Source of the DNA: Parcubacteria group bacterium Gr01-1014_20
GTDB taxonomy: Bacteria > Patescibacteriota > Minisyncoccia > UBA6257 > 2-01-FULL-56-20
Direction of reading: 5' to 3'
Assembly (NCBI GenBank): GCA_007376265.1
Contig: VMFW01000012.1
Span: 1 to 38,655, forward strand
DNA length: 38,655 nucleotides
In this document: positions 3,504-19,045 of the stretch, in pieces
How positions within the stretch are numbered: position 1 is the stretch's first letter
Layout of the letters: each line of letters begins with the position of its first letter
Translations under genes and position numbers: made by a program
The notes under the pieces: generated by a model
Databases searched by the model: none
What the model was told of the DNA's origin: nothing
What the model saw: only the letters and a program-made list of their open reading frames with translations

Positions 3504-5003
3504 TTATTTAATTATAATATGATCCCCTTTCTGGATGGCCATACTCGAGTTCACGATGAAGCCGCACTCCTTGCCAGCTTCGACTTGGTTCACTTCAAGT
3601 TTGCCAGTTTGGAGACTCACAATTTTGCCGTGGCCGACGAGATGGGGGTCGGTGTCGACTGCCTTGGATGGGTCTGCATCGGGTGAAGGCGGAGTGACTC
3701 GGTGGATCTCGACGTTCGCGCGGTTTTTCATAACGCCATCAACGACCTTACCGCCAACTAACTGTTTTTGAAGTTTGGCTTGGCTGAAGACGGCGAGGAC
3801 CTCGAGCCGGCCAGTCACGGCGGCGGCTTCGGGTTTCATAAGAATCACTTCGATGTCCTTGATCAGATGATAGACGATGTCACCCACGAGGATTCTCACC
3901 TTTTGAATCTCGGCTAAATTTTTGGTGGATTTGGAAACTTTGTTTTTGAAACCGATGATAATGGCTTTCGAGGCAATGGCGTTTTTCACATCATTGTCGC
4001 CGATGTCCCCCACTGATTCGTCGAGGATCAAAACTGGTTTTTCGCAAGGGAGAGATTTCATAATGGCCGAGAGGGCTTCGAGAGAACCGGAGTCCGAGGC
4101 TTTCACAATAAACTTGATGGCGTTTTCATTTTGCGCGTTGGCTTGAGTGATGCCGCGATTCTCGGCCACAATAATTTTATTGACTGACTCGGTCGAAATA
4201 TTTTTACCAGCGGTAAATGCTTCGCCAACTTGCGGGAGACTTTCGAAGCCGATAATGAGCGCTGGGGAAGAAGGCAATAGTTCAGTGGCTTTTTGCCCTC
4301 TAAAGTTTTCCAAGATTTTCACTTTGCCCTTGGCGCTTGCGGTCACGATGTCGTCGCCCTGGCGAAGCGTGCCGTTTTTGACGATGGCGGTGACTTCCAT
4401 GCCACGACGAGGATCAACTTTAGCCTCAAGAATAAACCCGGTGGCTTCGGCTTCGGCGGAGTAGGTCAAACTTTCATAGTCGGCGGCGAGGAGAATTAGA
4501 TCGATAAGCTCGTTAACATTTTGACCCGTTTTGGCAGAGATGGGTTCAAAGCTCACGTGACCACCATAGCCCTCAAGAAGAACGCCTTCCCCGGTCAATT
4601 CATTTTTAACTTTTTCGATGTTGGCTTCGGGTTTATCAACTTTATTGATGGCGACTACAAAAGGAGTTTTGGTGTCGTTCAGGATTTTGATGACCTCTTT
4701 AGTTTGGGGTTTCAAACCTTCTTCGGCGGCAACCACGAGAATCGCCAAGTCAGCGATCGAGGCGCCGCGAGAACGCATTTTGGTAAAGGCTTCATGGCCG
4801 GGAGTATCGATAAAAGTGATCTTTCGGTCAGTGTGAACGATTTCGTAGGCACCAACGGATTGGGTGATGCCACCGGCTTCTTTGCCAGCGACATTAGATT
4901 TCCGAATATAATCCAGCAAAGTAGTTTTGCCGTGGTCAACATGGCCCATGACAACCACAATGGGTGGTCTGGGGGTTAGTTTTGGCTCGGAAGTCGCGCT
5001 CAT
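3504..5003 (-). CDS. infB: Translation initiation factor IF-2 (short form)
   Basis: PPIVVVMGHVDHGKTTLLDYIRKSNVAGKEAGGITQSVGAYEI, IDTPGHEAF, NKVDKP. Confidence 0.97.
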   Translation of the reverse strand: MSATSEPKLTPRPPIVVVMGHVDHGKTTLLDYIRKSNVAGKEAGGITQSVGAYEIVHTDRKITFIDTPGHEAFTKMRSRGASIADLAILVVAAEEGLKPQTKEVIKILNDTKTPFVVAINKVDKPEANIEKVKNELTGEGVLLEGYGGHVSFEPISAKTGQNVNELIDLILLAADYESLTYSAEAEATGFILEAKVDPRRGMEVTAIVKNGTLRQGDDIVTASAKGKVKILENFRGQKATELLPSSPALIIGFESLPQVGEAFTAGKNISTESVNKIIVAENRGITQANAQNENAIKFIVKASDSGSLEALSAIMKSLPCEKPVLILDESVGDIGDNDVKNAIASKAIIIGFKNKVSKSTKNLAEIQKVRILVGDIVYHLIKDIEVILMKPEAAAVTGRLEVLAVFSQAKLQKQLVGGKVVDGVMKNRANVEIHRVTPPSPDADPSKAVDTDPHLVGHGKIVSLQTGKLEVNQVEAGKECGFIVNSSMAIQKGDHIIIK

Positions 5004-5229: not shown

Positions 5230-6786
5230 TTAATTTTCTTTCTCCTTTTCTGTGGCAGCAAGTTGTTCCATGTAGTTTTTCGCTTGAAGCTGCATATAAA
5301 TATCGCAGTATAACTTGATGCCGGCCACTTCGGTAAGAGTGATGTTCGGAACCTTGCCAGAAACGGGGTCTAAATCGATGCCCATTTGCATTACCTCGTC
5401 CAATTCCTTAAATTCTCCTATCTCTTTGAATCTCTTCAGTGCCGCTTCCTTGAAATCACCCTTTCCGTTCCAGTCGCCGAAAATGAGAAAGGCGGCTTTG
5501 AGAGTTTTGAAGAATTCATAGAACGCGGTGGCTTCCGCACGGAAATGAATGTCGATTTTGCAAAATACGGAGAGAGCGATCGCATAAGCCTCCAAAAAAG
5601 TTTTAAGCTTTTTACCCTCCCGCATAAAAAACGGATAGACCGCAAGTACCCGCCCCATCTGATTTTCGTCAAGGACCAATTTCATCTCATCCCAACCGAG
5701 GGCAAGCCTTTTCTCTGGCACCACCATCAATTTTGTGTTGCCAGTTTTATCCACTTCTAAATCGATAATTTCGTCATAGAATTTTTCTATGTTTTTTGGA
5801 ATGTACCACCAGAACAGGCCGCCTGTTGCGACGTTAAGTGCGTTGACGAATGTCTTTGCCATGAAAAAGCCATACTCCCAGAGATGTACCGACTGTAGCG
5901 CTTTCGAAACAGTAAGCTCCATGATCATTTCGCTTTTCGCGTAATGCTTAGTCTCCTTCCTATCAGATTTGTAGAGCTTAATATCTTTTATCCCCGCGTT
6001 CCATTTGTTGAAAGCGTTATTTCTGATGGAGTGGGACTGGCTCTGAATTCTTATCTTCATTTTATATTTTGGGATCTCGGCATCGCTGCCTTCTGGCCGT
6101 TGCCGGGTTAATTCCTTCTGCGTAAGCTCCCGCATCTGTTCATCATTTTTATCAAACGCTTCTTTCAGCCACTTCATCCAATCTTTGCCATTGCCCAATT
6201 CTTGAAATTTTTTCATCGAAGTGCCGCTGAAAATGGATTTGGCTTTATCCTCGTCTCGTATCGCGCTATAAAACCACGTAAGGGTTTTCACGTCTTCCTC
6301 GTCGAATTCGTCGACCATCTTTTTCATTTTTTCCAATTCGAGACGGGCGCGTGTCAGCTCAACCAGATTTTTGGCTTCGCCCTCTCTAATCTCGGATCGG
6401 CCGTCCACGGCACCACTGGGATCGGTATAGAGATATAAGAGTCTGCGCTCGTGAAGAGTTTTTGACATTTCTCTTGCTTGTTCAATTTCTTCCTTCGTGA
6501 AACCATTGCTTTTTGTGGACGCTCCCCAAAGTGCCCAAAAAAGTTTCTTTTCGTGATCGCCAAAATCATCACGAAAATTGCCGAGTTCTTTGTTGCCAAT
6601 GGAAACGGTAAGACTGATAGATACCATGATCGCCTTGCCGATCTCCTCCATCGCCAAGAGGGCGAGGTGAAAACAGACGTTGTCGACATTTTTGCCGAGT
6701 TCTCGTTCCGCAACGGAAAGAAGCCCCTCAGCATTCGAGAGGCAATTGTCTCTTACCTTTTGTGCCCCACTGGTATTTTCGCTCAT
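5230..6786 (-). CDS. AbiV-like (abortive infection) protein, extended 518-aa form
   Basis: N-terminus NCLSNAEGLLSVAERELGKNVDNVCFHLALLAMEEIGKAIMV...FRDDFGDHEKKLFWAL matches the AbiV pattern (A..lL.EElGKa...dH..Kl); C-terminal ~400 aa not recognised. Confidence 0.6.
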   Translation of the reverse strand: MSENTSGAQKVRDNCLSNAEGLLSVAERELGKNVDNVCFHLALLAMEEIGKAIMVSISLTVSIGNKELGNFRDDFGDHEKKLFWALWGASTKSNGFTKEEIEQAREMSKTLHERRLLYLYTDPSGAVDGRSEIREGEAKNLVELTRARLELEKMKKMVDEFDEEDVKTLTWFYSAIRDEDKAKSIFSGTSMKKFQELGNGKDWMKWLKEAFDKNDEQMRELTQKELTRQRPEGSDAEIPKYKMKIRIQSQSHSIRNNAFNKWNAGIKDIKLYKSDRKETKHYAKSEMIMELTVSKALQSVHLWEYGFFMAKTFVNALNVATGGLFWWYIPKNIEKFYDEIIDLEVDKTGNTKLMVVPEKRLALGWDEMKLVLDENQMGRVLAVYPFFMREGKKLKTFLEAYAIALSVFCKIDIHFRAEATAFYEFFKTLKAAFLIFGDWNGKGDFKEAALKRFKEIGEFKELDEVMQMGIDLDPVSGKVPNITLTEVAGIKLYCDIYMQLQAKNYMEQLAATEKEKEN

Positions 6787-6870: not shown

Positions 6871-8205
6871 TTATCCCTCCGCAAGCGTCAGTTCCTTGTT
6901 CTTATAAATCAGCCTGCTCCGTAGATTCGCCAGCAGCTCGCGTTTCTCCGATACGCTGCCTTCTCGTAGGAGATACTTCGCGTACTCTCTTATGTTGACA
7001 TCGTTTTCTTCAAGAGCCTGCTTCCCGTTATTCCGATTCATGAGCTTCTGTAGTTTGTTGAATCGTTTGATCTCGTCCTCCAGTTTCATCTTCATGCCGA
7101 GTTCGTTGATATTGACCTTATCGAGAATTTTGATGATCTGTTCAATCAATTCCTCCTCGCGGATGTATTTGTTCTTGCAGTTGCGATCGCGCGCCCGGGT
7201 GCATCCGTAGTAAACATACCGGTTCGTGCCACCATCTTTGAGCGGTTTGAATTTTTCCTCGGCACTGACGCCAGATCCGCAGAGGCCGCAGGTAAAAAGT
7301 TTTGTGAAGGAGAATTCCTTCGTTTCCCGGACAATTTGATCCCGTTTGAGCTGTGCCTGCACTTGCTGGAACAGCTCCTCAGTAATTAGCGGTTTATGCT
7401 TCCCCTGGTACCAGTTGCCGCTTTTTCTCGGATACTCGAACATTCCGTAATAGAACGGCATCGTGAGCATCCGGTAGGTACCACTCAAAGTCAGCGGCTT
7501 GTTGCCCCTTGTATGGAAATTCAGCTCAAACCTCAGCCAGTTATATATTTTCCTGCCGCTCCATTTTTCGTGAGCCATTTTTTCGAACATCTGCTTTACG
7601 ATGGGCGCCCGAGCCGTATCGACGATAAGCTGGCACTTCTTATCCATCATTTTCTGGTTCAGATAGCCGAGCGGGGCCATGCCCGGCCAGAGGCCCATTT
7701 CGACGCGCGTCCGCAGTCCGCGTTTCACATTCACGCCACGCGCATCGTTTTCAAGCTTTGCCTGCGAACCGAGAATCATAAGGAGGAATTTCTCGTTCGG
7801 TGAATCGGTGAAACGCTGGCCGTACGTCCTTATCTCGAGGAGTAATTTCTGGTCCATCAAATCCACGACCGCTCCCAGATCACCGGCGTTCCTCGCGATG
7901 CGGTCCGGCGCCCACGTGAGTATGCCGTTGAACTTGCCCGATCTGATATCCTTTAAAATTTCGTTGAACACGGGGCGCTGGCCAGTCGCTTTAGCCGAGT
8001 GGCTTTCTCTTCGGATCTCCGCGATCTCAAGTCCTTCACGTTCGGCGAGTTGCAACATTTCTTTTACCTGCGAATCAATAGAAAGGACTTGGCGCTCCTC
8101 CGATTCGCTGCTCTTTCTTGCATACAAGAGGTATCTGACCTTTGGCGGGAGCTGACTTGCTTGTTGGGTCCCAGCTCCCTTGGGCCCCATAGTTTGGTTA
8201 GTCAT
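6871..8205 (-). CDS. Large serine recombinase with recombinase and zinc-ribbon domains
   Basis: YLLYARKSSESEERQVLSIDSQ...WAPDRIARNAGDLGAVVDLMD; Recombinase domain; CGLCGSGVSAEE...YVYYGCTR zinc ribbon. Confidence 0.92.
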   Translation of the reverse strand: MTNQTMGPKGAGTQQASQLPPKVRYLLYARKSSESEERQVLSIDSQVKEMLQLAEREGLEIAEIRRESHSAKATGQRPVFNEILKDIRSGKFNGILTWAPDRIARNAGDLGAVVDLMDQKLLLEIRTYGQRFTDSPNEKFLLMILGSQAKLENDARGVNVKRGLRTRVEMGLWPGMAPLGYLNQKMMDKKCQLIVDTARAPIVKQMFEKMAHEKWSGRKIYNWLRFELNFHTRGNKPLTLSGTYRMLTMPFYYGMFEYPRKSGNWYQGKHKPLITEELFQQVQAQLKRDQIVRETKEFSFTKLFTCGLCGSGVSAEEKFKPLKDGGTNRYVYYGCTRARDRNCKNKYIREEELIEQIIKILDKVNINELGMKMKLEDEIKRFNKLQKLMNRNNGKQALEENDVNIREYAKYLLREGSVSEKRELLANLRSRLIYKNKELTLAEG

Positions 8206-8370: not shown

Positions 8371-10053
8371 ATGCGTAAAGACATCCAAGCAAAACTTAAG
8401 GGAATGCCCGAATTACTCTCTATCAGCCAGGTAGCAGAGATTTTCAATATTCACCCTGACACCCTCCGGAACTGGGAAAAGGATGGCATTTTAGTACCTC
8501 TGCGAGCTGGTAAGCGTGGCGACCGCAAATACCGTCCACAGGACATTCAGGCCATCGTGGACAAGATGGGCAGCAAGCTCACCCTGCCCCAACTTGAGCA
8601 GTTCCTTTGGAAGAGCGCTGATATTCTCCGCGGCAAGATCGACAGTTCCGATTATAAAAAATATATATTCGGACTTCTTTTCTATAAACGCATCAGCGAT
8701 GTGTGGGACGAGGAATATAAGCGCGTGATGGATGAATATAAAGATGAAACAATTGCGAAAGCTGACTATAACCATCGCTTTCAAGTTCCACAGGATTGTC
8801 GGTGGTCTGTTATTGAGGAACAGGCGGAAAACATCGGCCCGAAGCTTAACGGAATCTTCGATAAACTCACGAACGCAAACAGCCCGAAACTCGACAAGAT
8901 TTTTGATGATCTTGATTTCGCTCATAAAGATAAATTCCCGAATGAAACCACGCAGCGTTTAATAAATCACTTCTCGCAATACAATTTTGGCGATACCTAC
9001 ATCAATTCTGACCTTCTCGGAGACGCGTATGAATACCTCATCAAGCAGTTCGCAGCCGATGCCGGGAAGAAAGGCGGCGAGTTCTACACCCCGCGTGAAG
9101 TTGAGCGCGTTATCATCCAAATTCTTAATCCTCACAAGAAAGATCACATATACGATCCCACCGTTGGGTCCGGCGGTTTTCTTCTTGAGGCCTACCACCA
9201 CCTAAAAGAAAAAGAGGGTGAGAAAATCGCTCGTACACTCTATCTCTATGGGCAAGAAATAAATATCGGAACATTTGCGATCGCTAAGATTAATATGTTT
9301 CTTCACGGTCTTGATGCGGCGGATATTCAACGGGGTGACACACTCACAAATCCTCAGTTCTTAAATCCCAATGGAACACTGAAAACATTCGATATCTGCG
9401 TGGCAAATCCCCCATACTCAATCAGTGATTGGGAAAGTGAAATGTTCAAAGAAAGATACGGTCGAATTGAAGGCTATGAAATGCCGCCAAAGAGTAATGC
9501 GGACTATGCCTTTGTTCTTCATATTCTCAAGTCTATGAATTCGAATGGCCGCGCCGGTATCGTGTTGCCACACGGTGTTCTGTTTCGTAGTGGCGTCGAG
9601 GGCCGTATTCGAGAGCGGATACTCAAAAATGATCTCATTGAGGCAGTAGTCGCTCTCCCATCCAAGCTTTTCTATGGCACGGGCATTCCGGCAGCAATTC
9701 TTATCTTCAATAAAAACAAGGCGGAAGGCCATAAAAACAAAGTGTTCATCATTGATGCCGAGAAAGATTTTTCTGAAGGTAAAAACCAGAACTCGCTTCG
9801 CGTCCAGGATATCGCGAAAATCGTGAAGGCATACGACAACTACAAGGATGTCGAGGGTTACGCTCGTGTCATTGATCTTAAAGAAGTCGAAAAGAACGAA
9901 TACAACCTCAATGTTCGTCGCTATATCGAAAACGGTAATAAAGAGGAGAATGTTGACGTGCCAACCGTCAAAAAAGAAATTGACGCCCTAGAGGCAGAAC
10001 GTGTGGAGGTTAATAAAAAGGTTGAGAGGTATTTAAAAGAACTGAAATATTAA
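8371..10053 (+). CDS. hsdM: Type I restriction-modification methyltransferase subunit with N-terminal MerR-type HTH
   Basis: LLSISQVAEIFNIHPDTLRNWEKDGILVPLRAGKRGDRKY then HsdM: GEFYTPREVERVIIQIL, DPTVGSGGFLLEA, VANPPYS. Confidence 0.93.
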   Translation: MRKDIQAKLKGMPELLSISQVAEIFNIHPDTLRNWEKDGILVPLRAGKRGDRKYRPQDIQAIVDKMGSKLTLPQLEQFLWKSADILRGKIDSSDYKKYIFGLLFYKRISDVWDEEYKRVMDEYKDETIAKADYNHRFQVPQDCRWSVIEEQAENIGPKLNGIFDKLTNANSPKLDKIFDDLDFAHKDKFPNETTQRLINHFSQYNFGDTYINSDLLGDAYEYLIKQFAADAGKKGGEFYTPREVERVIIQILNPHKKDHIYDPTVGSGGFLLEAYHHLKEKEGEKIARTLYLYGQEINIGTFAIAKINMFLHGLDAADIQRGDTLTNPQFLNPNGTLKTFDICVANPPYSISDWESEMFKERYGRIEGYEMPPKSNADYAFVLHILKSMNSNGRAGIVLPHGVLFRSGVEGRIRERILKNDLIEAVVALPSKLFYGTGIPAAILIFNKNKAEGHKNKVFIIDAEKDFSEGKNQNSLRVQDIAKIVKAYDNYKDVEGYARVIDLKEVEKNEYNLNVRRYIENGNKEENVDVPTVKKEIDALEAERVEVNKKVERYLKELKY

Positions 10054-10054
10054 A

Positions 10055-11254
10055 ATGATAACTTCGATGGAAAAAAGAAGCGTCCCAAAAGAATGGGAGA
10101 TCAAGAAACTCGACGATTATATCGTCGCTGGCGAAATTGAACTTAGCCGAGGGAACGTAATATCGAAAAAGGACATTGCTAACAATCCCGGCCCCAATCC
10201 GATTTACTCTTCTTCCATACATAACGATGCCCTTTTTGGGACATATGGTGACTATATGTTTGACGAAGAGCTGATCACCTGGTCAGTTGATGGCGGCGGA
10301 AACTTTTTTTATAGACCGAAACATAAATTCTCTGTTACGAACGTATCTGGCATCTTAAGAGCCAATACTAAAAAATTTAACTATCATTTCCTTGCGTATC
10401 TGCTTGAGTTGGAACATCGCAAGTTTCATTTTGATTATCAAACCAAAGCGCATCCAAGCGTGATTCGAAAACTTTACTTTATCACTAGACCACCACTTCT
10501 TGAGCAACAAAAAATTGCGGAGATTTTAGAGACGCTTGATAAGGAAATAGAACAAACGACTCAGATAATTGTCGCTACAGAAAAAATGCAAATGGGCTTG
10601 ATGCAACATCTTTTTACTCATGGCATCGGACACTTAAAATTTCAGAAGACAGAAATAGGCGAGATTCCGAAAGAATGGAAGGTGGAAAGGTTAGATAAGG
10701 TTGCCCGGGTAGAACGAGGAAAGTTTTCCAACAGGCCTCGTAATGACCCAAAGTTTTATGGCGGAGATATACCCTTTATTCAAACTGGGGATGTTGTTCG
10801 TTCTGGCGGCCGAATTAAAAAATATAGTCAGACTTTAAACGAAGACGGTCTTGCTATAAGCAGGAAATTTTCTAAAGGAACTATTGTTCTTACTATCGCC
10901 GCAAATATTGGTGATACCGGCATCCTAGAATTCGATTCTTGTTTTCCAGACAGTCTCGTCGGTATTACCGTAAACAATGATATGGATAATATATTTCTCG
11001 AATATTTTATGAGAACACGAAAGGTGTATCTAAATAGTATTGCTACGCAATCGGCGCAGAAAAACATCAACTTACAAAAATTAGAACCGATGCTCGTTGT
11101 AAAGCCCGGATTAAAAGAACAACGAGAGATTGCCGTCATTCTTACATCGGTTGACGAAAAAATTTCTGTTAACGAGAGATTAAAAGCTGGGCTGACTCTC
11201 CTTAAAAGAGGTCTTATGCAAGATCTTTTAAGTGGCAAAAAAAGAACCGTATGA
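10055..11254 (+). CDS. hsdS: Type I restriction-modification specificity subunit
   Basis: Two TRD-like halves, each followed by L.EQ(Q/R)(K/E)IA.IL coiled-coil (LLEQQKIAEILETLDKEIEQT; LKEQREIAVILTSVDEKIS). Confidence 0.92.
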   Translation: MITSMEKRSVPKEWEIKKLDDYIVAGEIELSRGNVISKKDIANNPGPNPIYSSSIHNDALFGTYGDYMFDEELITWSVDGGGNFFYRPKHKFSVTNVSGILRANTKKFNYHFLAYLLELEHRKFHFDYQTKAHPSVIRKLYFITRPPLLEQQKIAEILETLDKEIEQTTQIIVATEKMQMGLMQHLFTHGIGHLKFQKTEIGEIPKEWKVERLDKVARVERGKFSNRPRNDPKFYGGDIPFIQTGDVVRSGGRIKKYSQTLNEDGLAISRKFSKGTIVLTIAANIGDTGILEFDSCFPDSLVGITVNNDMDNIFLEYFMRTRKVYLNSIATQSAQKNINLQKLEPMLVVKPGLKEQREIAVILTSVDEKISVNERLKAGLTLLKRGLMQDLLSGKKRTV

Positions 11255-14163
11255 AATTCAACGAGCAATATACAATTGAAAATCATATCATCAAGTTCCT
11301 TAAGGAGGGGCTTGGTTATGAATACATAAAGCCGCAAGAGTTCGCAAAGCTGCGGGAATTTGAGAACGAATACATAATCATTTCGCTCCTTATTGCGGCC
11401 GTAAAGAAAATCAACGGAATCACCGACGAGACGGAGGCTCAAACGGTAGTGCGTGAAGTTAAAAAACTTGATTCAAATGAAGCATTTTTAAATGTTCTCC
11501 GAAACGGAATCAACTTGAAGGATCCCGAGACTGGGAAGATGCGCGACTATTTTATCGTTGATTATGACAAACCCGAGAATAACCATTTCGTTGTTACGAA
11601 CCAGTTTTATTTTGAAGGCAATTCCGAAAACATTCGTCCAGATGTGATGATATTCCTGAACGGCCTGCCGATAGCTGATATAGAAGCAAAGAGTCCAACT
11701 GCCGCGAGCAGCATTGATTACTCGAATGCTGTCGGTCAGATAAAACGATATGAGCGCAACGCCTTTAAGCTTTTCTGGCCCAACTGCTTCAATATTGCTT
11801 CTGATGGTCTGAAAACCGTATACGGGGCTACCTATGCCACAGCAGAATATTTCTTACAGTGGAGGGAGGAAGAATTGGATAAAAAATATGGCGAAGGGCT
11901 CGAAGTGACACTCGCCGCGCTTCTTTCGCATGATCGCCTGCTGGATATTATCGCGAATTTTATTCTCTTCGAGAAAGAGCAGGAAGGTACCGTGAAGAAG
12001 ATCACGCGCTACATGCAGTACCGAGCGACGAATAAGATTGTTGAGCGCGTACAGGAAGGGAAAGCGAAACGCGGCCTTATTTGGCATACACAAGGGTCCG
12101 GCAAATCTTTTACAATGTTTTTCACCGCGTGGAAATTGCGGTTTGATAAGAAGCTCAAAAATCCGAAGGTTTTTGTTTTGGTGGACAGAATTGATCTTGA
12201 TGACCAGCTCTATAATACTTTCTTGAATTGTGGTGGGCAAAATGTAGTCCGAGTAGAGTCGCGACGCGATCTTGAGCGCAAGATCCAATCTCCAGAACGC
12301 GGTATTTTCATTTCCACGATACAAAAATTTTCCGAGCTAGGAGATGAGATCAAGAATCTCGACGAAAATATTATCGTGCTTTCGGATGAAGCGCACCGGG
12401 ATAATGAAGGTATCTCGGCGATCAACTTACGCAGCGCCATGACGAACGCTTTCTTCTTTGGCTTTACTGGTACGCCGATTGATAGATTAACTCTCAATAC
12501 TCATAGAAATTTCGGCGAGGAGGGAGAACGCTATCTTGATTACTATTCTATTCAGCAAGCCATTGATGATGGCGCGACGTTGCCGGTTACCTACGAGGCG
12601 CGACTTTCTAAGTTTTTTATTGACGAAGAAGAGCTGGATAAACAGTTTGACGAGCTTACTGCGGGTTTGACCGAACAAGAAAAAGACCGGGTCTCAAAGA
12701 AATACGGCAAGAAAGAAGCAATCGTAAAGCTCGATAGGCGCATGGAAGCAATCGCTCGGGATATTGTGGAGCATTTCAAACTTTATGTTGAGCCAGCTGG
12801 TTTCAAAGCGCAGATCGTTTGCTATGACCGCGAAGCAACGGCGAAGTATAAAAAACTGCTTGATCAGCTGGTCCCGAAAAATTGGTCAGAGGTCATTTAC
12901 TCTCCCGGCGATGCTAATACCGATCCGGAAGAATTACGAACGTACAATACGACAAAGGCGAAGCGCGAGAAACTCATCAACGAATTCAAGGATCCAAATA
13001 GTCCTCTGAAGTTCCTGCTCGTCTGCGACATGCTTTTGACTGGCTTTGACGCACCAGTTGAGCAAGTGATGTATCTCGATAAGCCACTCTGGGACCATAA
13101 CTTGTTGCAAGCAATCGCACGCACAAACCGTATTTATCCAAATAAAGGGGCCGGAAAGGTTATTGATTACTATGGTATCACGAGGAGTCTTTACAAGGCG
13201 TTGAACTTCGACGAAAGCATTGTTGATTCCGCGATGATTAATATCGACAAGCTCAAGGAGGAATTCGAGGAGGTCTTGGGTGAGCTCAAGAATATTTTTG
13301 TCGGTATCAATATTGAAGATCCCTCCATTGAAAATCTTCGCCGCTGTCTCAAAATCTTTGCGGACAACATCGAAAAGCAAAAGTTCTTCCAAGAGAAATA
13401 CGCGCGTCTGAAGCTTCTCTTTGAAGTCTTGGCACCGGACCCATTCTTGAAGAAGCACATACGCGCCTTCGAATGGTTTACCAGCGTATTTATCGCTTTT
13501 GAGAAAGAATATGGCATGAAAGAATCCGACGTGGAGCTTCTCGCAAAATACGGAGAGAAGGTAAAGCAGCTTATACAACAGCGGGTTGATTACGAAGGCA
13601 TCACCAAGAACTTCCGCGAACTTAACGTGAATGATCTTTACCTGATGGAGCGGCTAAATAAGATGGATGACGAGGAAAAGGCACTTAACCTCGAGAAGAT
13701 GCTTAAGCAGGAAATCTCGATCAACGTAGACACAAATCCGGCATACAAGAAATTCAGCGAGCGGCTCTTGGCGATACGAAAAGAATTTGAGCAGCATCAG
13801 ATTGATCTTGCCGAGCGCATTAAACGTTACCAAGAGCTTCTGTCGGATATAAGGAAAAAAGGAGACGAGGCAAAAGAGTTGGGCTTCACGCTCAAAGAGT
13901 ACGGCTTATATGTAATCTCGGAGGAATTCATCGTCGATAGCGATAAAGCCGCAGTGCACGAGTTCGTTAAAGAAATGACGGGGCAACTAGAGGAAATGCT
14001 TGATGAAGGATGGCAAGAATCCTCCAAGCGAGAAGAGTTTTTAAAGGAAGCTAAGCGTATCATTCAGGAGCTTGTGCTCAAGGAATACAAAGAAAAGATC
14101 AAGGTCAACGACTTCCACAAGTATTTGAATCGGCTTATTGATATCGTAATTAGGAAGTTCTGA
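11251..14163 (+). CDS. hsdR: Type I restriction endonuclease subunit R
   Basis: RPDVMIFLNGLPIADIEAKSP nuclease motif, WHTQGSGKSFTM Walker A, SDEAHRDNEG; ATGA overlap with hsdS. Confidence 0.95.
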   Translation: MKFNEQYTIENHIIKFLKEGLGYEYIKPQEFAKLREFENEYIIISLLIAAVKKINGITDETEAQTVVREVKKLDSNEAFLNVLRNGINLKDPETGKMRDYFIVDYDKPENNHFVVTNQFYFEGNSENIRPDVMIFLNGLPIADIEAKSPTAASSIDYSNAVGQIKRYERNAFKLFWPNCFNIASDGLKTVYGATYATAEYFLQWREEELDKKYGEGLEVTLAALLSHDRLLDIIANFILFEKEQEGTVKKITRYMQYRATNKIVERVQEGKAKRGLIWHTQGSGKSFTMFFTAWKLRFDKKLKNPKVFVLVDRIDLDDQLYNTFLNCGGQNVVRVESRRDLERKIQSPERGIFISTIQKFSELGDEIKNLDENIIVLSDEAHRDNEGISAINLRSAMTNAFFFGFTGTPIDRLTLNTHRNFGEEGERYLDYYSIQQAIDDGATLPVTYEARLSKFFIDEEELDKQFDELTAGLTEQEKDRVSKKYGKKEAIVKLDRRMEAIARDIVEHFKLYVEPAGFKAQIVCYDREATAKYKKLLDQLVPKNWSEVIYSPGDANTDPEELRTYNTTKAKREKLINEFKDPNSPLKFLLVCDMLLTGFDAPVEQVMYLDKPLWDHNLLQAIARTNRIYPNKGAGKVIDYYGITRSLYKALNFDESIVDSAMINIDKLKEEFEEVLGELKNIFVGINIEDPSIENLRRCLKIFADNIEKQKFFQEKYARLKLLFEVLAPDPFLKKHIRAFEWFTSVFIAFEKEYGMKESDVELLAKYGEKVKQLIQQRVDYEGITKNFRELNVNDLYLMERLNKMDDEEKALNLEKMLKQEISINVDTNPAYKKFSERLLAIRKEFEQHQIDLAERIKRYQELLSDIRKKGDEAKELGFTLKEYGLYVISEEFIVDSDKAAVHEFVKEMTGQLEEMLDEGWQESSKREEFLKEAKRIIQELVLKEYKEKIKVNDFHKYLNRLIDIVIRKF

Positions 14164-14164
14164 C

Positions 14165-14734
14165 ATGCAAAAGCAGATCACATTACAAAACAAGAAAGTC
14201 GCCTATACCCTCCGGAAAAGCAAGCGGGCAAGGAGGATGCGCCTTGCGGTGTATTGCGATGGATCTGTCGTGGTGACGACGCCGCACGACCTTCAAGAAA
14301 CCATTGCCGAGAGATTTATCCGAGAGAAAACCGAGTGGCTATTTTCTAAGCTCGCCTTTTTCAAACAGTTTGAGGGCAAGCCGGTTGTTAGATACAGCCA
14401 CGACGATTATCTCAAGTATAAAGACGGCGCTCTCGCACTAATTCAGGAAAGGGTTAATCATTTTACCAACAAGCACGGATACCGATATAACAAGATCACT
14501 ATCAAAAATCAGAAGACGTGCTGGGGTAGTTGTTCCCGAAAGGCAAATCTAAATTTTAACTATAAGGTTCTATTCCTGCCGGAGAACATTCAAAACTACA
14601 TCGTTGCACACGAACTTTGCCATCTTAAAGAATTCAATCATTCGAAAAGATTCTGGAAATTGGTGGCTGGCGTGATACCGGAATATATGGAAATCCGCAG
14701 CCAGCTCAAAAAAAGCGGGGTGAGTTTTTATTGA
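14165..14734 (+). CDS. YgjP-like metal-dependent hydrolase (M48/DUF45)
   Basis: KTCWGSCSRKANLNFNYKVLFLPENIQNYIVAHELCHLKEFNHSKRFW. Confidence 0.9.
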   Translation: MQKQITLQNKKVAYTLRKSKRARRMRLAVYCDGSVVVTTPHDLQETIAERFIREKTEWLFSKLAFFKQFEGKPVVRYSHDDYLKYKDGALALIQERVNHFTNKHGYRYNKITIKNQKTCWGSCSRKANLNFNYKVLFLPENIQNYIVAHELCHLKEFNHSKRFWKLVAGVIPEYMEIRSQLKKSGVSFY

Positions 14735-14740
14735 AAACAA

Positions 14741-15700
14741 ATGAGTAAATTCAATAAGCAAAATCGATTAGACGAGAAGGCAATATCGACTATCAGTGAT
14801 TATTTCATGAATAAACATGGAGATAAATTTGATCTGCAATTTCATGGCATAAAAGATAATACACCAGATACGGATGGGTTTTTGCGATTAAGAGAGCCGC
14901 ACCAAGATAAACAAATGCAGGGGGAATATTTAAATCAAGTTGTCTTTTTTCAACTTAAAGGATATGAGAAGCCAATAATTGATAATACTTACAATTGTTC
15001 GCGTCGACTAATCGAGTTTTGTAAAGGAATAAATCTACCAACAATCTTATTTGTTGTAGCCAATGTTGGCAGTAAGCCGGAAAAACAAAATGATCCGCAA
15101 ATATACTGGTATCACTTTAGTAATGTAAATATTGAAATACTAAATAAAACAAACAAAGAAAAAAGTAAAAACATTCGTATTCCGAATCTTAATCCTTTGA
15201 GGGTTGGTAGAGGTGATTTTATTGACCAGTTTTATATCCACATAAAGAACCTAGCGAAGAAAAACGAGTTTCTAGATCTTCCGAAAGAGATACTAGACAT
15301 CGCTGTTAAGCTGAAAAATAATATACTTCTTGTTGCCAGTATTATATATCTAGCTGGCAGAGTCACGAAAGCAGAACGTAAAGCCATCGCAAAGATGTTA
15401 AAGGTGACTGACAGGCAGATGAGTGATATTTTATCTAGCTTGCACACTCAACAATTAATTTATAAGGACAAAAATATATACATTTTTAAACTAGCAAAAG
15501 ACGAAATTAAACGAGACGTCGGATTACTACTCTTGTACGAAACGATCAACAAAATTGATTTAGATAAATTATTTAGTTTATTTCCTAGCCACAAACAAAA
15601 ACTACAAATTTATAAAAATCTTGCCCAAGTTCGTCATCCAGTCGTTTTTGAGTATCTAGATAAAGAGGCGGGGAAATTACTTAAATATGCTAAAAAATAA
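14741..15700 (+). CDS. DUF4365-like PD-(D/E)XK-type protein with C-terminal winged-helix-like region
   Basis: N-term NRLDEKAISTI...DTDGFLRLRE...VVFFQLKG resembles E...D...QxK; YW.HFSN; C-term ERKAIAKMLKVTDRQMSDILSSLHTQQLI HTH-like. Confidence 0.55.
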   Translation: MSKFNKQNRLDEKAISTISDYFMNKHGDKFDLQFHGIKDNTPDTDGFLRLREPHQDKQMQGEYLNQVVFFQLKGYEKPIIDNTYNCSRRLIEFCKGINLPTILFVVANVGSKPEKQNDPQIYWYHFSNVNIEILNKTNKEKSKNIRIPNLNPLRVGRGDFIDQFYIHIKNLAKKNEFLDLPKEILDIAVKLKNNILLVASIIYLAGRVTKAERKAIAKMLKVTDRQMSDILSSLHTQQLIYKDKNIYIFKLAKDEIKRDVGLLLLYETINKIDLDKLFSLFPSHKQKLQIYKNLAQVRHPVVFEYLDKEAGKLLKYAKK

Positions 15701-17933
15701 CGACGAAATTTTCAATAATCTAGAACTTCTTGAGGAGTATGCCCACATCACCCCCGATAAGGCATTTCAAATAGTTCGGTCCATTGTAGACACAAAACGA
15801 CCGTTAAAAACCAAAGCCTATCGCTTGAAAGGACTAGCCGGGAAAGTTCACGGAAAATCTCATGAAGATCTTTTGTTGCGGGGCGTAAAAATATTGGACA
15901 AAATTAGATATCTAGAAACTAAAAAAGTTGTAAAGATACTTGAACGTTTACACCAACATAGTAGCCAGTCGATTAAATCCGAAGTTTCAAAAACCTTTGA
16001 GCGCCTATCTCAATATAATTTATTTGTTTTGCAACAGATAGAATATAAAACACAAAATTTAATATTGGATGAAGTAGAAAGTTGGAGTGATAAAAAACTA
16101 ATTAAAAACCTAGAGATAATATGTGTTATAGCGAAAGAGCTACTCACACCCACTTTCGAAGGACATTCGATGCCCGACTATAAGACTTTCACCTTACACT
16201 CCGGTCCTTTAGTTGTTTCAGACCACCTTAAGAATCTACGTAGGCGTTCCATCTCACTACTAAGAAAAATATATTTACTTTCTAGTGAATTGACGCAAAA
16301 AACAAAAATTCTTCAGACTTTACGAGAAGCCACTCAAACCCCACGTAGCCATCTTTATGGTGACGATATGGAGCAAATGGTATTGGAGAATACGAACAAT
16401 ATTATAGATTTTTATCTCGAGATTTTGCCCAACTCAGAAAATGAAATTATTCAAGATATCGAGGAACAAAAAATATGGTTTGTCAGAAGATTCGAAAAAA
16501 AACCTCCTAAAAAGATAAATAGACTAGATGAAGCTATCCGGTCAAACTCTGCCTACGGCATGTTTAGAGTTTTTGTCGGATACGACGGGCGTCTGGATCC
16601 GGATTATGACTTCAACAAGGATAGAGAAACTCGTTCTCAGAAAATTAACGAGTTTGTTTCAGATATAACCGAGACTAATTTTGAAGAGTGGCGACAAAAG
16701 ATTTTAGAAGTAATAAAGAATTATTCTGCTACAGAGCCGGGTAGCTACGGATATTTTGAAAAGTTTTTATCAGAACTCGGTAATAAAAAACCGAATCTTG
16801 GGATACGATTGGTTGAGAAAAACGAAAAAGAGCTCGCCCCTTTTCTAATAAATTTATTGTCTGGTATTTGGAGAAGTGATGCAAAGGAACACGCCAAAAA
16901 AATAATTTCTAGATGGGTAGACAAAGGAAAATACTTATATTCCTGGGCTTTTATATCTGTAATAGTAGATGATTTTGATGAGAAACTATTTAGAAAGGTT
17001 ATTGATAAAGCAAAAAAGCTCAAAGATATTCGTGCCCTAAATAATACTTTACGGTCAATTTTACACCATTATCCTAAGCGCAAGAGTCTTAAGTCTGTTT
17101 TTATTGAAATTCTAACTGAGCTAATAAAACACAAAAATACGTGGTGGGTTGAAAATCTATGGTTCAAGGGCGAACCAATTCTCTTAGATCTCACAGAAAA
17201 AGAGTTACACGTTATTTTAGATGGCTTATTACTACTTCCGAATGTTGATTATCGGGAAGAAGAAATACTAAAACCTATTGCTGAAAAATATCCCGAAAAA
17301 GTTATTAACTTTTTTCACGAAAGAGTTGAAATGAAATCTAAAAAGAAAAGAGGCATTGATGATCGTTATGATGGAGTCCCATTTAACTTCCATAAACTTG
17401 GAGAAACTTTGAGAAAACATGAGGAAGTAATAGTGCCAATGTTACTCAAATGGTATGGAGACGGAGGTAAAAATCATAATTGGCTGTTTAGCTGGGAAGC
17501 GAGTCATCTTTTTGAGGAGATCTTTCCTGGATTTAGCCCCATCCTTGAACAATCGTTAATTGACCTTATAAAAAAGGGTAGCAAGAATAGCAGAAATATC
17601 GTTTTTTCAGTTCTTAGTAAATACGAAGGAGGGAAGTTTTTATGGGGCATTGTGAAAGCTTTAGTTCGACAGTACGCCGATACTAAGGAATATGAAAGAG
17701 TCCGGGGCAATTTATTTGGATATTTATCACAAACAGGGGTCGTTTCTGGCGAAGATGGTTTTGTGAGGGCATATCAAGCGAAAAAGCAAGAAATCCAAGA
17801 ATTAGGAAAAGATTCAGATAAGCGAGTAAAGAGATTTGTTAGAGAATACGGGGATTATTTAGATAAACACATCGTCCATGAGCAGAAAAGGACAAATGAA
17901 CAGATTGAACTGATGAAACGCGGATTGGGGTAG
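15687..17933 (+). CDS. Hypothetical 748-aa alpha-helical (HEAT/ARM-like) protein
   Basis: Long ORF overlapping the upstream gene by 14 bp; repeated amphipathic helices, no recognised catalytic motif. Confidence 0.6.
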   Translation: MLKNNDEIFNNLELLEEYAHITPDKAFQIVRSIVDTKRPLKTKAYRLKGLAGKVHGKSHEDLLLRGVKILDKIRYLETKKVVKILERLHQHSSQSIKSEVSKTFERLSQYNLFVLQQIEYKTQNLILDEVESWSDKKLIKNLEIICVIAKELLTPTFEGHSMPDYKTFTLHSGPLVVSDHLKNLRRRSISLLRKIYLLSSELTQKTKILQTLREATQTPRSHLYGDDMEQMVLENTNNIIDFYLEILPNSENEIIQDIEEQKIWFVRRFEKKPPKKINRLDEAIRSNSAYGMFRVFVGYDGRLDPDYDFNKDRETRSQKINEFVSDITETNFEEWRQKILEVIKNYSATEPGSYGYFEKFLSELGNKKPNLGIRLVEKNEKELAPFLINLLSGIWRSDAKEHAKKIISRWVDKGKYLYSWAFISVIVDDFDEKLFRKVIDKAKKLKDIRALNNTLRSILHHYPKRKSLKSVFIEILTELIKHKNTWWVENLWFKGEPILLDLTEKELHVILDGLLLLPNVDYREEEILKPIAEKYPEKVINFFHERVEMKSKKKRGIDDRYDGVPFNFHKLGETLRKHEEVIVPMLLKWYGDGGKNHNWLFSWEASHLFEEIFPGFSPILEQSLIDLIKKGSKNSRNIVFSVLSKYEGGKFLWGIVKALVRQYADTKEYERVRGNLFGYLSQTGVVSGEDGFVRAYQAKKQEIQELGKDSDKRVKRFVREYGDYLDKHIVHEQKRTNEQIELMKRGLG

Positions 17934-17947
17934 TAGTTATAAACACC

Positions 17948-19045
17948 ATGCCATCTTCTGAGGCCACGATAAAATATCCCAGAGATTTGTATCTCGACGA
18001 ATACGATATGACATACACTTCTGCAAAAGCATATCAAGCGCAGCTCGTTAAAATACTGAAGGAGATTTTTGGAAATGACATGGTAAAAAGTGAATGGGAC
18101 TCGGTTACTTACGATGGACATACGACAAACCACAAACTTGTATATGCGCCTCGCGTTGACGTGGCCGTAGGCCCATTCAATTCATACGCGGATCTTGATA
18201 TCGGCAACGACCAGACGGCCATAATGAAAAATCATCTCCTCGTAAAAAGATTACAGGAGAGAACAGGAAATGCTGTCATTTGGAACGATTGCGCTCGCTG
18301 TTTTCTCGCTATCGAGATAGTGTTTAGCGGAACAGCTAAACACATATCGGGCGATTTTCTCAACGCTACAGCAACGGGCGCCATCGGATTCATTGTTGCC
18401 CATAGGAAAATAAGCGACAAAGTAAAGCGTACACTGAACTACTTTCATCGCTTGGAAGAATTCGAGCGATTACATGATAAGGGATTGCGCAATCTTATGG
18501 TTTTCCGTGACGATGAATTCCTTGAATTTTTGTGGGAGTTGAAAAATCCAGATAAGGTGCCGAAATTGAAGCTTAAAACTAATTACCGTATCCTGTTTAA
18601 AGATGGTTTTTGGCCAAAGATATTTTCAATATACACGCATACCATGAGGCACAAACCCGAGTTCAATCAAGACGAAATTACTCGGCTTGCGGTATATGAT
18701 TTTGACGTTGCCGAGGTAGTGGAAGAACACGATGTCGTTTTAATGACAACGAGGCACACGCAACCCAGTAGTGCATTTGTTTTTGAGGTAATTACCTCGT
18801 CTGGCGATCATGTCAGAATAATGGACATTATAGATATTGCAGTAAGAGCAAAATATAGAGATAAAGGTATCGGTACGCAAATGCTTAAAATCTTTGAAAA
18901 TATCGCTCGAGATAATGGATGCCAGTATGTCTGCGTTGCAATATGTCCAATATGGAAACCCAACCCCCGACCCACATGCCTCAAAATGACTTCTAGTCGG
19001 AGCCCCAAGAAGCGCTTATACTACTTGCATACCCGAGGTACTTAA
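17948..19045 (+). CDS. Restriction-endonuclease-like domain fused to GNAT acetyltransferase domain
   Basis: RVDVAVGPFN...FLAIEIVFSGTAKHISGDFLNATATGAIGFIVA (D...E...K); C-term DIAVRAKYRDKGIGTQMLKIFENIARDNG is GNAT motif A. Confidence 0.55.
   Translation: MPSSEATIKYPRDLYLDEYDMTYTSAKAYQAQLVKILKEIFGNDMVKSEWDSVTYDGHTTNHKLVYAPRVDVAVGPFNSYADLDIGNDQTAIMKNHLLVKRLQERTGNAVIWNDCARCFLAIEIVFSGTAKHISGDFLNATATGAIGFIVAHRKISDKVKRTLNYFHRLEEFERLHDKGLRNLMVFRDDEFLEFLWELKNPDKVPKLKLKTNYRILFKDGFWPKIFSIYTHTMRHKPEFNQDEITRLAVYDFDVAEVVEEHDVVLMTTRHTQPSSAFVFEVITSSGDHVRIMDIIDIAVRAKYRDKGIGTQMLKIFENIARDNGCQYVCVAICPIWKPNPRPTCLKMTSSRSPKKRLYYLHTRGT

Follow-up and report, generated by a model that had tools for sequence, protein, structure and literature searches.

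A DUF4365 nuclease and a HEAT-type solenoid in a Parcubacteria genome: candidate member of an undescribed modular immune-receptor family

STAND receptors bear sensor repeats after an NTPase. Two other described defence systems bear on the locus presented here. The activity of DSR2 is switched on by a phage tail tube protein, and the HEAT region is among the parts with which this protein makes contact (PMC11263360). In SPARDA, the nuclease DREN, which is equivalent to DUF4365, adopts a PD-(D/E)XK fold with catalytic residues D41, Q60 and K62 (PMC12205087). The D/Q/K set of the NbaSPARDA DREN is needed for collateral cleavage, and mutation of D41 also abolishes defence (PMC12205087). RelA/SpoT-type toxins act in phage defence as well (toxSAS literature). 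The locus described below couples a predicted DUF4365 nuclease (P1) to a HEAT-type solenoid (P2).

Gene order and composition of the locus

The window, meaning the whole stretch of 38,655 nucleotides that was analysed (contig VMFW01000012.1 of Parcubacteria group bacterium Gr01-1014_20), holds an island beside infB composed of AbiV, serine recombinase, restriction-modification (RM) and P1-P2 genes:
3504-5003, infB
5230-6786, minus strand, HEPN_AbiV gene (E 4.6e-12)
6871-8205, minus strand, serine recombinase gene
8371-14163, plus strand, type I RM genes hsdM, hsdS and hsdR, with starts at 8371, 10055 and 11251 (Pfam and PADLOC)
14165-14734, plus strand, gene for a YgjP-like metallopeptidase, lying between hsdR and P1 (PF01863, E 1.1e-42)
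14741-15700, plus strand, P1 open reading frame, 319 aa
15687-17933, plus strand, P2 open reading frame, 748 aa

A preliminary description of this DNA had reported two reading frames overlapping by 14 bp (15687-15700), located downstream of type I RM genes and near AbiV-like and recombinase genes, and the annotation agrees on each point. The genes hsdM-hsdS-hsdR-ygjP-P1-P2 form a compact run with successive junctions of +1, -4, +1, +6 and -14 bp. The pair was also said to be more AT-rich than hsdMSR, which is borne out by GC contents of 0.324 (P1) and 0.356 (P2) versus 0.446, 0.392 and 0.442 for hsdM, hsdS and hsdR; the corresponding GC3 values are 0.30 for P1 and 0.32 for P2. Two further genes of the locus deserve mention. 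The ygjP gene, separated from hsdR and P1 by 1 and 6 bp, possibly belongs either to the RM system or to the new module. Just after P2 lies a 365-aa reading frame (17948-19045) whose C-terminus matches GNAT acetyltransferases and whose N-terminal part matched no family.

One explanation suggested by this gene order is that P1-P2 keeps watch over the RM genes of its own operon or serves as their back-up. The window pair lies directly after hsdMSR and ygjP, and the pair at a related locus, L003, lies directly behind genes for an AlwI-type REase and a DNA methylase. However, most other solenoid loci lack recognised adjacent RM genes, and the sharp difference in GC content suggests that P1 and P2 probably did not arrive together with hsdMSR. 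For these reasons, we consider an RM accessory role very unlikely.

An infB-adjacent recombinase is also present in a congener (L183) and in a member of the same taxonomic family (L187), at 38-39% identity, and no match to the RM or P1/P2 genes was obtained at infB of either genome. The occurrence of the recombinase upstream of infB in all three, each time with differing cargo, makes this position a likely integration hot spot. The source genome measures 0.91 Mb in 20 contigs, is 99% complete and contains P1 and P2 in single copy. This size, matched by the small genomes of related bacteria, suggests an organism of the CPR/Patescibacteria type, a tiny bacterium that probably depends on a host.

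Domain make-up of the two proteins and the boundary between them

The features resolved within the two proteins are as follows:
14741-15220, plus strand, DUF4365/DREN nuclease domain of P1, residues 1-160 (PF14280, E 1.5e-5)
14873-14875, 14951-14953 and 14957-14959, plus strand, predicted catalytic residues D45, Q71 and K73 of P1
15323-15505, plus strand, winged-HTH-like segment of P1, residues ~195-255, linking effector and solenoid (weak Crp-HTH match)
15593-15697, plus strand, P1 C-terminus, residues 285-319, with homology to the first helix or helices of P2-family solenoids
15687-15700, plus strand, 14-bp P1/P2 overlap, GCTAAAAAATAA, with an A6 run at 15692-15697; apparent split point of an ancestral fusion
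17733-17759, plus strand, TGVVSGEDG, the best-conserved motif of P2, residues 683-691 near the C-terminus (13-row alignment)

Residues 60-151 of P1 match DUF4365 with 25.5 bits against a Pfam cut-off of 24.3, and the fused relative L034 scores higher at 39.1 bits. The residues D45, Q71 and K73 are common to P1, L034 and L125, a viral-contig protein that is an unambiguous member of the family (PF14280, E 2.3e-30). On the family match and these catalytic residues, P1 is assigned as a DUF4365 nuclease (DREN) of the predicted PD-(D/E)XK type. The nuclease-like E...D...QxK core and HTH tail proposed earlier from the letters alone are thereby retained, the tail as a weak Crp-like match. Comparison of the winged-HTH segment with the tail of the L003 partner gave an hhalign probability of 76 (E 2.2e-5), and comparison with the tails of PIN partners gave 29 (E 5.8e-4); the winged HTH and its kinship with the PIN tails are weak assignments. 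The AlphaFold model of P1 was of low confidence (pLDDT 41.7), from an alignment only three sequences deep even with the viral DUF4365 protein included. Searches with P1 alone brought up no relative among viral contigs, among plasmids or in 60 other related genomes, and the nuclease domain of L034 matched nothing in plasmids or phages. A DUF4365 DNA pattern run over viral contigs yielded mostly chance matches and one genuine DUF4365 protein, and a family search of 145 CPR genomes, which returned no matches, is uninformative because it missed P1 itself.

P2 was modelled from an 8-row alignment as a confident all-helical superhelix (pLDDT 83.9, pTM 0.63). Foldseek related this model to the HEAT solenoids CAND1, importin-beta, SF3B1 and PP2A-PR65 with E values down to 4.4e-6 and low TM-scores, which are usual for long solenoids that differ in curvature, and in a PDB sequence search the profile matched designed armadillo repeats weakly. 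The predicted structure thus upholds the HEAT/ARM-like appearance first noted for P2, which we class as a HEAT-type alpha-solenoid and regard as a candidate sensor. Pfam, PADLOC (2023), NCBIfam and PHROGs gave no family match to P2. Within the motif, of general form TGVVSGExG, residues T683, G684, G688 and G691 are invariant across the 13-row alignment.

Where does P1 end and P2 begin? A profile of other P2 N-termini scored 13.4 bits against P1 residues 285-314, a value reached by 0 of 2000 shuffles of P1, and P2 homologues in two-gene loci start ~40 residues earlier than P2, with a stretch that corresponds to the P1 end. By this comparison the last ~35 residues of P1 are assigned to the solenoid. 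The preliminary description had treated P1 and P2 as two separate proteins; the reading frames are real, but the boundary between them falls inside the solenoid domain. In L034, a relative from the same class, P1 and P2 are one continuous 1,000-aa reading frame, and since L034 reads through both, the two separate genes in the window seem to derive from a single fused protein that was split. A programmed -1 frameshift was considered and rejected, as P2 occupies the +1/-2 frame relative to P1, and reading on in the -1 frame quickly leads to a stop.

The split may have arisen by an indel, and one explanation is that such an event, real or in the assembly, near the A6 run divided the 1,000-aa fusion and left a broken gene whose two-gene form is non-functional. 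On the solenoid tree the window pair has a fused relative on either side, L034 and L047, P2 lies one frame off P1 beside the A6 run such that the frames join with no homologous sequence lost, the spacing between the purine-rich stretch and the P2 ATG is long, and other broken or truncated solenoid copies are known (L006, L037 and L005/L007). However, apart from the split neither half is damaged over their 1,067 codons, dozens more A/T runs of at least 6 occur in the window, about ten of them in P2 (including one of 8), without breaking a gene, and the P2 ATG precedes the P1 stop by 14 bp in the pattern of coupled genes. On these grounds the split may instead be natural, and a natural two-gene form exists in other members of the solenoid family. 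A broken copy is in our judgement a serious explanation, though less likely than not, and one that would be compatible with an immune-receptor function for the solenoid family as a whole. Were the split natural, one would expect the last part of P1 to dock onto the solenoid of P2, a contact that would in itself keep the pair together.

Distribution, effector partners and proposed function

Homologues of P2 occur sporadically, in ~0.3-3% of sampled genomes, among CPR bacteria, Cyanobacteria, Pseudomonadota, Nitrospirota and Bacteroidota. Most are collinear with P2 at 21-29% identity, and the closest, L034, is 41% identical. Plasmid-borne copies were found in Pseudanabaena, Legionella, Rhizobium, Sphingobium and Aulosira, and genomic copies in Pseudanabaena, Legionella, Pelomonas, Pseudomonas, Nitrospira, a Bacteroidota MAG and scattered CPR genomes. 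P2-like proteins were detected in 5/380 genomes of the host's own phylum, 2/384 of its class, 3/399 and 1/292 in samples centred on the Legionella and Pseudanabaena hits, and 5/150 and 3/152 in another two sets of CPR genomes, where the samples overlap and the query or centre genome is counted within them. A search with a 4-row P2 alignment retrieved 8 loci in genomes and none in viral contigs. Some copies are decaying: L005/L007 (G133:C17) and L006 (G158:C15) are cut by a contig end, lie in two frames or contain stops. L037:5404-6504 from Nitrospira joins a PilZ-looking N-terminus to the last ~200 solenoid residues and represents either a remnant or a new fusion.

The co-occurrence check proposed at the outset gave a uniform answer. 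Every complete solenoid locus has its solenoid fused to, or directly 3' of, an effector or effector candidate, and effector-solenoid gaps in two-gene loci range from -14 to +11 bp. The partners are:
DUF4365 nuclease: the window pair; L034 (fusion)
RelA/SpoT synthetase fusions: L004, L010, L011, L024, L035, L047 and L050 (contig end cuts L050)
PIN_12 partner genes: L008/L017, L009, L018/L023, L019, L020, L021 and L022
STAND, L012: EAD10-like (sub-threshold) and NTPase
STAND, L036: XRE, Mrr and nSTAND5
STAND, L051: weak Mrr and nSTAND5
Mrr-like nuclease, L049: DGGIDAEY...FPIQIKW, recognised by eye, without Pfam match
Partners without family match: L003 and L048, 28% identical to each other

Several of these loci merit a separate remark. 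A family of 440-450 aa partners without convincing Pfam match lies upstream of two CPR solenoids (L048:5257-6615 and L013:5862-7187). On a Rhizobium plasmid, L010:4993-8925 combines RelA/SpoT, solenoid and a C-terminal poly-gamma-glutamate hydrolase in one chain, with a SIR2 protein gene nearby. L018 (a Bacteroidota MAG contig) and L023 (a Smithella contig) carry the same PIN-solenoid genes, and the host of one or the other is uncertain.

A tree of the solenoid was built from 20 rows, several of them long. L034 groups with the window pair (92/90), and the two then join a RelA/SpoT fusion of the same class (93/95), both supports being below the strictest cut-off. The tree carries five changes among six effector labels; the RelA/SpoT label requires 3 changes, at least 2 of which are forced by strongly supported branches, and it sits in at least 2 separate places. 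These label changes support the exchange of effectors on a constant solenoid. The earlier proposal of a two-gene module is upheld insofar as P1 and P2 belong together, as their fusion in L034 indicates, but the two are probably not a fixed pair, the nuclease being one of several interchangeable effectors.

How would such a pair act? The DSR2-like domain order, together with the occurrence of the solenoid in the sensor position of STAND proteins, leads us to infer that P2 is the part that detects infection and that it governs P1. We hypothesize that the P2 solenoid would recognise a sign of infection, either a phage protein or some disturbance of a host process, that recognition would alter the assembly of the solenoid and free the attached DUF4365 nuclease, and that P1 would then cut nucleic acid non-specifically, such that phage growth is halted and the cell is sacrificed. 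We favour, as slightly more likely than not, P1-P2 as the DUF4365 version of an undescribed modular immune-receptor family of effector, winged HTH and HEAT solenoid in one chain or two coupled chains, for which sensing, activation through assembly, collateral cleavage and defence are the predicted parts. The wider proposition, on which our judgement is evenly balanced, is that this mostly NTPase-free family spans at least 5 phyla including CPR, that one HEAT solenoid has been combined time and again with effectors of unrelated kinds (nucleases of the DUF4365 and Mrr-like types, PIN RNases, RelA/SpoT synthetases and STAND modules), and that it senses infection directly. Established here are the domain make-up, the intact catalytic residues, full-length solenoid homology across phyla, effector swapping, the P1-P2 fusion in a relative, a sporadic distribution and the island context. 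Several observations count against an immune receptor: the structure model of P1 is of low confidence, its winged HTH and the kinship of this segment with the PIN tails are weak, no record in the phage collection matched, many copies lie outside obvious defence islands, and effector swapping is also known among toxin-antitoxin systems, whose constant part is an inhibitor.

The last of these leads to an alternative hypothesis, a toxin-antitoxin-like or fused toxin-inhibitor module in which DUF4365, PIN or RelA/SpoT is the toxin, the solenoid neutralises it in cis or trans, and the main purpose is element maintenance, with release by phage perhaps secondary as in CapRel. PIN and RelA/SpoT are classic toxins of such systems (toxSAS literature), effector and solenoid are fused or tightly coupled, solenoid loci occur on plasmids, and Panacea offers the precedent of a single neutraliser domain with many toxins (PMC8832971). 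However, a HEAT solenoid of 750-800 aa is very large for an antitoxin, the effector comes first in gene order and often shares one chain with the solenoid, and the solenoid also follows STAND NTPases (L012, L036 and L051), where a neutraliser is implausible. We judge the toxin-inhibitor hypothesis unlikely.

Should the immune-receptor reading be true, a single receptor family would take in proteins whose present labels are 'hypothetical', 'PIN domain' or 'RelA/SpoT domain', and their common solenoid with interchangeable effectors would provide a handle on many unannotated genes together. Because the effectors vary while the sensor is constant, the trigger of the solenoid could be approached via RelA/SpoT or PIN members from cultivable hosts. 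The ultra-small CPR bacteria, about whose immunity little is known, would also gain an abortive nuclease system.

Comparison with described systems

The pair had been put forward as lacking a match to any described system, and this holds within the libraries searched. Among the closest known systems is DSR2, which shares with it the order effector, HTH, HEAT solenoid and C-terminal domain over ~1,000 aa (PMC11263360). Neither has an NTPase, and in the window pair the solenoid is expected to sense. The DSR2 effector is a SIR2 NADase, whereas the window pair has a DUF4365 nuclease and its relatives have other effectors; membership in DSR2 was rejected on this difference. No DSR2 sequence match to the pair was obtained in the PDB sequence search, nor among the Foldseek matches listed, and we regard the likeness as a resemblance of domain order that does not imply homology. 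SPARDA (short pAgo with DREN/DUF4365-APAZ) has the nuclease family and the D/Q/K set in common with P1 but pairs with an Argonaute, whereas the partner of P1 is a HEAT solenoid. Membership in SPARDA was rejected because no Argonaute gene was found among the scanned window neighbours, P2 is the partner, and the PADLOC Aga_REase model matches only its nuclease part in P1 (protein residues 22-136, E 0.0015).

With STAND/Avs-type receptors the likeness lies in relatives L012, L036 and L051, in which the solenoid follows a STAND NTPase and so takes the sensor position; P1 and P2 gave no match to an NTPase domain, and most relatives are likewise without one. CapRel/toxSAS shares the RelA/SpoT-type effector of several relatives and the logic of a fused effector and sensor, but differs from the window pair in that the regulatory part here is a 750-aa HEAT solenoid and the effector a nuclease. 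Finally, the L008 solenoid (L008:5854-8262) matches the PADLOC model of Olokun OloA over 270 residues (28 bits, E 3e-7), L018 matches it at 0.021, and the remaining scanned solenoid members gave no match to it. A distant kinship of L008 with OloA is possible from this alignment, and the match may also be explained by a helical-repeat make-up in common. The principle of an effector joined to a solenoid sensor is already known, and no description of this solenoid with these effectors was found in the open-access papers or libraries searched (PADLOC 2023).
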